Below are positions 11,539 to 15,900 of a stretch of 22,463 nucleotides of DNA, in pieces. Within the stretch, counting starts at the first letter, position 1, and every line of letters starts with the position of its first letter. The stretch covers positions 2,535 to 24,997 of the IMG/VR virus record IMGVR_UViG_3300030419_003365. One strand, written 5' to 3'. Source of the stretch: a virus. The notes beneath the pieces are model-generated. The model ran no database searches and had not been told where the DNA came from. It saw only the letters and a list, made by a program, of their open reading frames with translations. A program made the position numbers and the translations under genes.

Positions 11539-11567
11539 TTGACATTCCCCACAATATTTGCTATACT
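11539..11567 (+). promoter_or_regulatory. Sigma-70 promoter for groEL
   Basis: TTGACA (11539-11544), 17-nt spacer, TATACT (11562-11567), preceded by TGC, an extended -10. It begins 2 nt after the preceding stop codon. Predicted transcription start near 11574 gives a 25-nt leader holding AGAGAGG. Confidence 0.9.
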
Positions 11568-11598
11568 ATGAGAGACAACTTTACGCAGAGAGGTATGT

Positions 11599-15369: not shown

Positions 15370-15397
15370 TTGACAAACATAAACAGAGTGCTATACT
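15370..15397 (+). promoter_or_regulatory. Sigma-70 promoter for hsp20
   Basis: TTGACA (15370-15375), 16-nt spacer, TATACT (15392-15397) preceded by TGC (extended -10). Predicted start of transcription about 15402-15404, immediately before the first leader hairpin. Confidence 0.88.
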
Positions 15398-15403
15398 ATA
15401 GAC

Positions 15404-15468
15404 AGAACTGAGTGTTGCCTTTGGGACATTCAGTTTGTTACTTGCTTATACAAGGAGGAAATACTATG
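15404..15468 (+). promoter_or_regulatory. Two-hairpin leader of hsp20, probable ROSE-like RNA thermometer
   Basis: Hand folding of the leader. Hairpin 1: 15406-15416 pairs with 15425-15435, 11 pairs including two G-U, loop of 8. Hairpin 2 follows at once: 15436-15446 pairs with 15453-15463 around a 6-nt loop. In hairpin 2 UUGCU (15442-15446) lies opposite AGGAG (15453-15457), giving U-A, C-G, a G-G mismatch, U-A and U-G; C-G, one A-A mismatch, two U-A, G-U and U-A extend it. The ribosome-binding site AAGGAGG is almost wholly in the stem and the AUG (15466) is just outside. A UUGCU strand with a G-G mismatch opposite the ribosome-binding site is the hallmark of ROSE thermometers of bacterial small heat-shock genes (established). 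Thermosensing here is inferred. Confidence 0.7.
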
Positions 15469-15900
15469 AGTAACGCACTATCACTACATCGCCGCCCAGC
15501 ACTTTTGGGAGGTTCAATCTTCGATGACATCTTTAATAATGTACTGGACTTGCCCCAGTTGGTTCAACAATCAACTCAAGGGTATCCTGTCGCTGATATC
15601 TATCGAGAAGACGACGGCACAACAATTATGGAGTTCGCACTGGCCGGTTTCTCTAAAGAGGAATTATCAGTAGAAATTGAACCTGGAAAGAAAAGTATTA
15701 CAGTTGGCGCGCAATCTATTGTTGGAGAAAAAGAAATTGCCAATCGACGGATTGCACGCCGAAGCTTTAAGAAGACTTATGTGAATTTTGATAATAATCT
15801 CGATCTTTCAACAGCAATCGCTGATTATCAAAACGGTCTTCTTCGCATCACCATCTCACCGCGCCCAGAGGTCCAGCCTCTAACTATTAAAATTAATTAG
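15466..15900 (+). CDS. Small heat-shock protein, Hsp20/IbpA family
   Basis: 144-residue ATP-independent holdase that keeps unfolding proteins soluble. The alpha-crystallin domain spans about 40-132: PVADIYREDDGTTIMEFALA (41-60), GFSKEELSVEIEPG, and the signature YQNGLLRITI (121-130), matching A-x-x-x-N-G-L-x-I. The C-terminal IKI (141-143) supplies the I-x-I/V oligomerisation motif. The ATG at 15466 follows AAGGAGG; an ATG-like upstream extension lies in the leader and is rejected. Single-gene unit with own promoter, structured leader and downstream hairpin. It likely works with GroEL of this phage or with host chaperones. Confidence 0.95.
   Translation: MSNALSLHRRPALLGGSIFDDIFNNVLDLPQLVQQSTQGYPVADIYREDDGTTIMEFALAGFSKEELSVEIEPGKKSITVGAQSIVGEKEIANRRIARRSFKKTYVNFDNNLDLSTAIADYQNGLLRITISPRPEVQPLTIKIN

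Follow-up and report, generated by a model that had tools for sequence, protein, structure and literature searches.

The 62-nt leader preceding the hsp20 gene of the phage studied here likely acts as a riboregulator of the ROSE-like kind, built of two hairpins and controlling the Hsp20 that the phage itself encodes. The conservation of its structure together with the hsp20 gene is shown below by comparison of related phages; its response to temperature is inferred. The whole stretch of DNA analysed (22,463 nucleotides, hereafter the window) belongs to a virus record of 24,997 bases, and its genes are of phage type, encoding a DNA polymerase, an endolysin, a ClpP-like protease and GroEL. The hsp20 gene (15466-15900) is flanked by an ORF of 118 aa on one side and by a gene resembling fatty acid hydroxylases on the other, and has its own promoter, from which a transcription start near 15404, and hence a leader of 62 nt, was inferred. 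The relevant features are as follows.

15370..15397, + strand: sigma70-type promoter of hsp20, TTGACA-16-TATACT (consensus scan, 11/12)
15404..15465, + strand: 62-nt 5' leader with two adjacent hairpins, ROSE-like (Rfam ROSE_3 match; kept in related phages)
15405..15436, + strand: hairpin 1, 12-bp stem with bulged G15417 and a C-C/G-G apex (folding z-score; covariation)
15417, + strand: bulged G in hairpin 1, present in all 21 leaders without variation and matched in position by a bulged G of the Rfam ROSE_2 and ROSE_3 consensus (alignment; Rfam consensus structures)
15441..15457, + strand: hairpin 2, CUU[G]CUU (anti-SD, 15441-15447) with AAGGAG (15452-15457) (folding; 21-leader alignment)
15444, + strand: bulged G in hairpin 2, located inside U(U/C)GCU and the hallmark of ROSE elements (invariant in the alignment)
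15452..15458, + strand: Shine-Dalgarno (SD) sequence AAGGAGG of hsp20 (sequence)
15466..15900, + strand: hsp20, IbpA-like small heat-shock protein of 144 aa (Pfam PF00011, 5.4e-8; PHROG 432)

The two hairpins occupy most of the leader. In hairpin 1, positions 15405-15416 pair with 15425-15436, followed by the bulged G15417 and by CC/GG closing a UUU loop; its folding energy is -15.2 kcal/mol, as compared with -5.4 ± 2.0 kcal/mol in shuffled sequences (z -4.8, 0/200). Hairpin 2 is formed by the pairs C15441-G15457, U15442-A15456, U15443.G15455, C15445-G15454, U15446-A15453 and U15447-A15452, with G15444 left unpaired, and is weak but above chance (-2.9 kcal/mol, z -2.5 against shuffles), while the entire leader folds with a z of -2.69. 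An initial annotation, made from the sequence alone, had proposed two adjacent hairpins filling the short leader, and this held in both sequence and coordinates. The first stem of 11 pairs that it described held save for the count, which is 12, and the G-G mismatch that it placed in the second hairpin held only in part, since a bulged G, like that of the ROSE_2 and ROSE_3 consensus, describes it better.

Comparison with the Rfam families by cmscan revealed a match of ROSE_3 (RF02523) to positions 15409-15471, with a score of 29.4 bits, covering the model completely (1-69 of 69) and with the AUG in register. The E-value was 1.4e-4 for the 181 bases scanned and 0.017 over the window, where it was the top of six matches. 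The gathering score of the family (43 bits) was not met, so that the leader is not counted as a member of RF02523, and none of the phage leaders scanned reached this score, the best being that of L020 (37.9 bits, E 8e-8 in its own record), with 34.1 bits (E 0.0012) for Melnitz-1 and 26.2 bits (E 0.28) for L034. For reference, the score of ROSE_2 (RF01832) for E. coli ibpA is 100 bits. Both families, ROSE_3 and ROSE_2, have in their consensus structures the same two hairpins as the phage leader, with a bulged G in each.

The closest tested counterparts are the ROSE-like thermometers of Pseudomonas ibpA, which are 61-62 nt long and consist of two hairpins (Krajewski 2013, PMC3669281). They resemble the phage leader in length, in the stable first hairpin, in the second hairpin hiding the SD opposite U(U/C)GCU and in the gene itself, ibpA. 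They differ in being located on bacterial chromosomes, in having been verified experimentally, in a GC-rich hairpin 1 (AU-richer in the phage) and in their sigma32 control, whereas the phage hsp20 has a sigma70-type consensus. The hsp17 thermometer of Synechocystis (PMC4477652) likewise masks the ribosome-binding site ahead of a small heat-shock gene but is a single hairpin, whereas the leaders of cyanophage hsp20 are of the two-hairpin ROSE type. Of the traits that define the ROSE-like class (PMC3669281, PMC12857270), melting and translation upon heating are inferred here by analogy, whereas three others are seen in the leader: an SD imperfectly paired to U(U/C)GCU beside the start codon, at least one stable 5' hairpin ahead of the SD hairpin (supported for hairpin 1 by z-score and covariation) and, as the usual case, control of a small heat-shock gene, the leader lying directly before the PF00011-encoding hsp20.

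When used as a lone query against viral contigs, the Hsp20 of the window gave no matches, and an alignment query (A1) was needed, which returned 80 viral loci, 24 of them with 49-70% identity to the window protein. All 20 distinct leaders from these 24 loci keep the two-hairpin layout. In a structural alignment of 21 leaders, including that of the window, 89.7% of the cells are paired, as compared with 70.4% in shuffles and 46-58% when slid, and covariation, strong in hairpin 1, amounts to a score of 0.590 against 0.213 ± 0.022 and 0.10-0.15, respectively. Both sides change in 12 of the 14 pairs of hairpin 1, the apex of which (the bulged G and C-C/G-G) is conserved in sequence while the stem varies freely; in hairpin 2, 96.8% of the cells are paired. 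It should be mentioned that the alignment (A4) was fitted to the structure by hand and is biased in its favour, for which reason tests independent of it were sought, and that hsp20 leaders are mutually related, so that the counts are not independent.

A fixed two-hairpin descriptor was passed at 6/6 by 40 of 90 hsp20 leaders and by none of 1659 other ORF leaders, and at 5/5 by 64/90 and 8/1659, respectively; the control in loci not chosen by their SD motif gave 0/381. The pass rate is underestimated, since the 90 leaders include miscalled upstream starts and bacterial genes. A protein-blind pattern recovered at least 120 viral elements, every one with a start codon 4-10 nt downstream, of which 101 precede genes encoding Hsp20 (phmmer) and about seven more precede Hsp20 truncated by contig ends (by eye), the remaining 12 preceding one unknown family of 61-98-aa proteins. 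The SD-hairpin pattern alone proved weak, only a handful of 80 loci having scored in a search with R1 (described below).

Model R1, built from the 21 leaders only, was run on 22 whole phage records with leaders absent from its training; four of these test records (S-RSM4, HTVC115P, S-WAM2 and S-H9-1) had given proteins to the alignment query. Eleven matches were obtained, and the best nine (HTVC115P, ACG-2014f, Melnitz-1, MA01, S-PM2, syn9, S-CREM1, S-ShM2 and S-SSM7) end exactly at the AUG of hsp20. No match was returned in several records whose leaders show the element on reading; R1 is specific, not sensitive. By direct reading, the leader is present in 20 of 21 phage records, including S-PM2, syn9, HTVC115P, Melnitz-1 and Deifobo, the sole exception being Vibrio phage PWH3a-P1, whose hsp20 has no ROSE-like leader. 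Beyond these 21 records, the hsp20 leaders of Phosso, P-TIM68 and PAC2 carry the element as well. The hosts of the phages in which it precedes hsp20 are cyanobacteria, Pelagibacter, Methylophilales, Pseudomonas and Sinorhizobium. Hsp20 itself was found in 505 of the 50,697 phage records searched, mostly cyanophages.

Because the ribosome constrains its sequence, the SD helix can vary little. Its outer pair, C-G, is replaced by G-C in S-RSM4-type cyanophages (GUCGCUU with AAGGAC) and by U-A in L066 and L076, and the U.G pair by C-G in many phages. With blind anchors, the three outer pairs were all formed in 73 of 88 hsp20 leaders against 19 of 166 anchored controls. A shuffle test of these outer pairs over 14 motif types was not significant, in part owing to anchors misplaced in the AAGGAGG leaders. 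Covariation in the SD helix is sparse, and support for the pairing comes from conservation together with a small number of compensatory changes.

Folding with ViennaRNA of the leader together with the coding sequence to 15475 or beyond favours rival pairings, and the SD becomes increasingly free from about 20-30°C, being largely open in this leader from about 30°C. The rival pairing was not seen by eye in the leader of the closest relative, L009; unlike it, the SD hairpin is shared by every relative. In the same calculation the known ROSE element of E. coli ibpA was predicted to melt hardly at all between 20 and 50°C, and energy folding over temperature is consequently uninformative as a test.

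The initial annotation had read the leader as a ROSE-like thermometer of a phage hsp20 and had named folding over temperature, the Rfam ROSE models and pairing in related phages as checks. The last was favourable, as pairing is kept in related hsp20 phages and hairpin 1 shows numerous compensatory changes; the match of the ROSE_3 model is in register, below its gathering score; and folding was ambiguous, the SD being freed increasingly from about 20-30°C once coding sequence is included, in a calculation to which the known E. coli element is unresponsive. Its reading is supported by comparison, melting and temperature-dependent translation being inferred. Its statement that no case is described in a lytic phage agrees with the literature searched. 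As to the lytic nature of the source phage, the record is only a 25-kb fragment; the same leader occurs in cultured cyanophages. Those cyanophages are generally regarded as virulent.

In the mechanism proposed, transcription from the sigma70-type promoter, itself inferred from consensus, would yield an mRNA beginning with the stable bulged-G hairpin, for which covariation provides support. In the weak second hairpin, CU(U/C)GCUU would pair with AAGGAG, leaving one G bulged. By analogy with the Pseudomonas elements, which share this layout and have been tested, this hairpin would hide the SD at ordinary temperature and keep Hsp20 low, while heat or another opening trigger would give the ribosome access.

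The main rival explanation, or partner mechanism, is autorepression, in which the leader is chiefly a binding site of Hsp20/IbpA and misfolded protein produced by infection titrates Hsp20 away, so that aggregation is sensed more than temperature. This is no more than possible, in the absence of binding data, and it is compatible with temperature sensing. The IbpA proteins of E. coli, Cedecea and Vibrio repress their own translation via thermometer-type 5'UTRs, for which R93 is required (PMC10474464). In favour of this explanation, Arg is found at position 93 in 30 of 33 aligned phage Hsp20s and an aromatic residue at position 34 in all 33, the leaderless phage PWH3a-P1 has S93/F34, and the apex of hairpin 1 is conserved on a freely varying stem, as would be expected for a recognition site. 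The window protein meets the criterion of Arg 93 and aromatic 34 (PMC10474464) with R99 and Y40; that of a positive charge at both 97 and 98 is unmet, the residues being K and T, respectively. Against it, R93 is also general in IbpA of alpha- and gamma-proteobacteria, Deifobo and L034 carry the leader and yet have K93, which is repression-defective in E. coli, and the phages do not conserve K98, the positive charge of which is required in E. coli.

According to a second alternative, hairpin 1 merely guards the mRNA at its 5' end, and hairpin 2 is weak and incidental, without any regulation. Only 1-2 nt separate hairpin 1 from the predicted 5' end, which would be consistent with a role in stabilising the mRNA, as proposed for Pseudomonas (PMC3669281), and hairpin 2 amounts to only a few kcal/mol. 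Nevertheless, the anti-SD CU(U/C)GCUU is retained despite very different surroundings and changes along with the SD (GUCGCUU/AAGGAC; UUUGCU/AGGAA), which makes this reading very unlikely. Finally, the inverted repeat of hairpin 1, which follows the promoter closely and has arms of ten bases separated by another ten, might be taken for a CIRCE-like DNA operator of a transcription regulator; this was rejected and is all but excluded, as the arm sequences vary freely among phages while pairing is kept, including G-U, as would be expected of an RNA structure rather than of a fixed site bound by a protein.

Beyond the ROSE-like riboregulator proposed here, a bolder reading may be considered, namely that tailed phages own a widespread ROSE-type branch acting as a combined sensor of heat and protein aggregation. 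In this reading Hsp20 would recognise the bulged-G hairpin of its own leader, feeding back on translation during infection (no binding data are available); the element would also operate in hosts outside alpha- and gamma-proteobacteria, such as marine cyanobacteria; and it would have been recruited to further phage genes (a groESL operon and an unknown family of small proteins). Taken jointly, these suppositions are no more than a possibility.

RNA thermometers are known in temperate phages, namely that of lambda cIII (cited in PMC8917201) and the FourU thermometer of SP-beta blyA (Tong 2023, cited in PMC12857270). These are also phage genes under an RNA thermometer, but they represent other structural classes, other genes and temperate phages. 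No report of ROSE in phages was found in the literature searched, which excluded most subscription journals, so that absence is not proof; in two papers on cyanophage Hsp20 (PMC3827213, PMC5028025) neither "thermometer" nor "untranslated" occurs. Should the leader prove to function as a thermometer, the chaperone output of ocean phages would be set at translation by temperature or protein stress, and its occurrence in cultured phages (S-PM2, syn9, S-ShM2, Deifobo) makes the idea directly testable.

Several minor observations were made in the course of the analysis. In the syntenic relatives L002 (5517-7166) and L003 (769-2427) an ORF of 549-552 aa takes the place of the window hsp20; having no hsp20 at the corresponding place, they are uninformative on the leader, and hsp20 with its leader may conceivably be an exchangeable cassette. 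The same leader precedes an Hsp20 start of 57% identity in a contig of 11 kb assigned to a Polaribacter MAG (L198:1431-1497), which may be of phage origin and have been binned together with bacterial sequence. An unverified record of Campylobacter phage A11a (L227, MG065691.1 73694-74904) contains E. coli ibpA with its ROSE_2 element, which is likely host contamination. Genes of tmRNA lie near hsp20 in two viral contigs (L011:454-814, L030:1-84). The unknown 61-98-aa family behind the two-hairpin leader (L240, L241, L254, L262, L271, L273, L276, L300, L301, L316, L340, L348) has no significant Pfam match and appears phasin-like by eye.

Thermometer-type control of IbpA of this sort has been described in alpha- and gamma-proteobacteria (PMC10474464); Hsp20 leaders of Spirochaete MAGs (L203:1283-1362, L204:1256-1335, L206:1424-1503) display a bulged-G hairpin with CACGCUU/UACGCUU opposite GAGGUG. 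The promoter of the window groEL (TTGACA..GCTATACTAT, 11539-11598) closely resembles the hsp20 promoter, but groEL is without such a leader. The 112-kb viral contig L136 carries two ROSE-like elements on the - strand (36-105 and 2159-2220), one of them upstream of an Hsp20-like ORF truncated at the locus end and the other about 100 nt before a groES-groEL operon.
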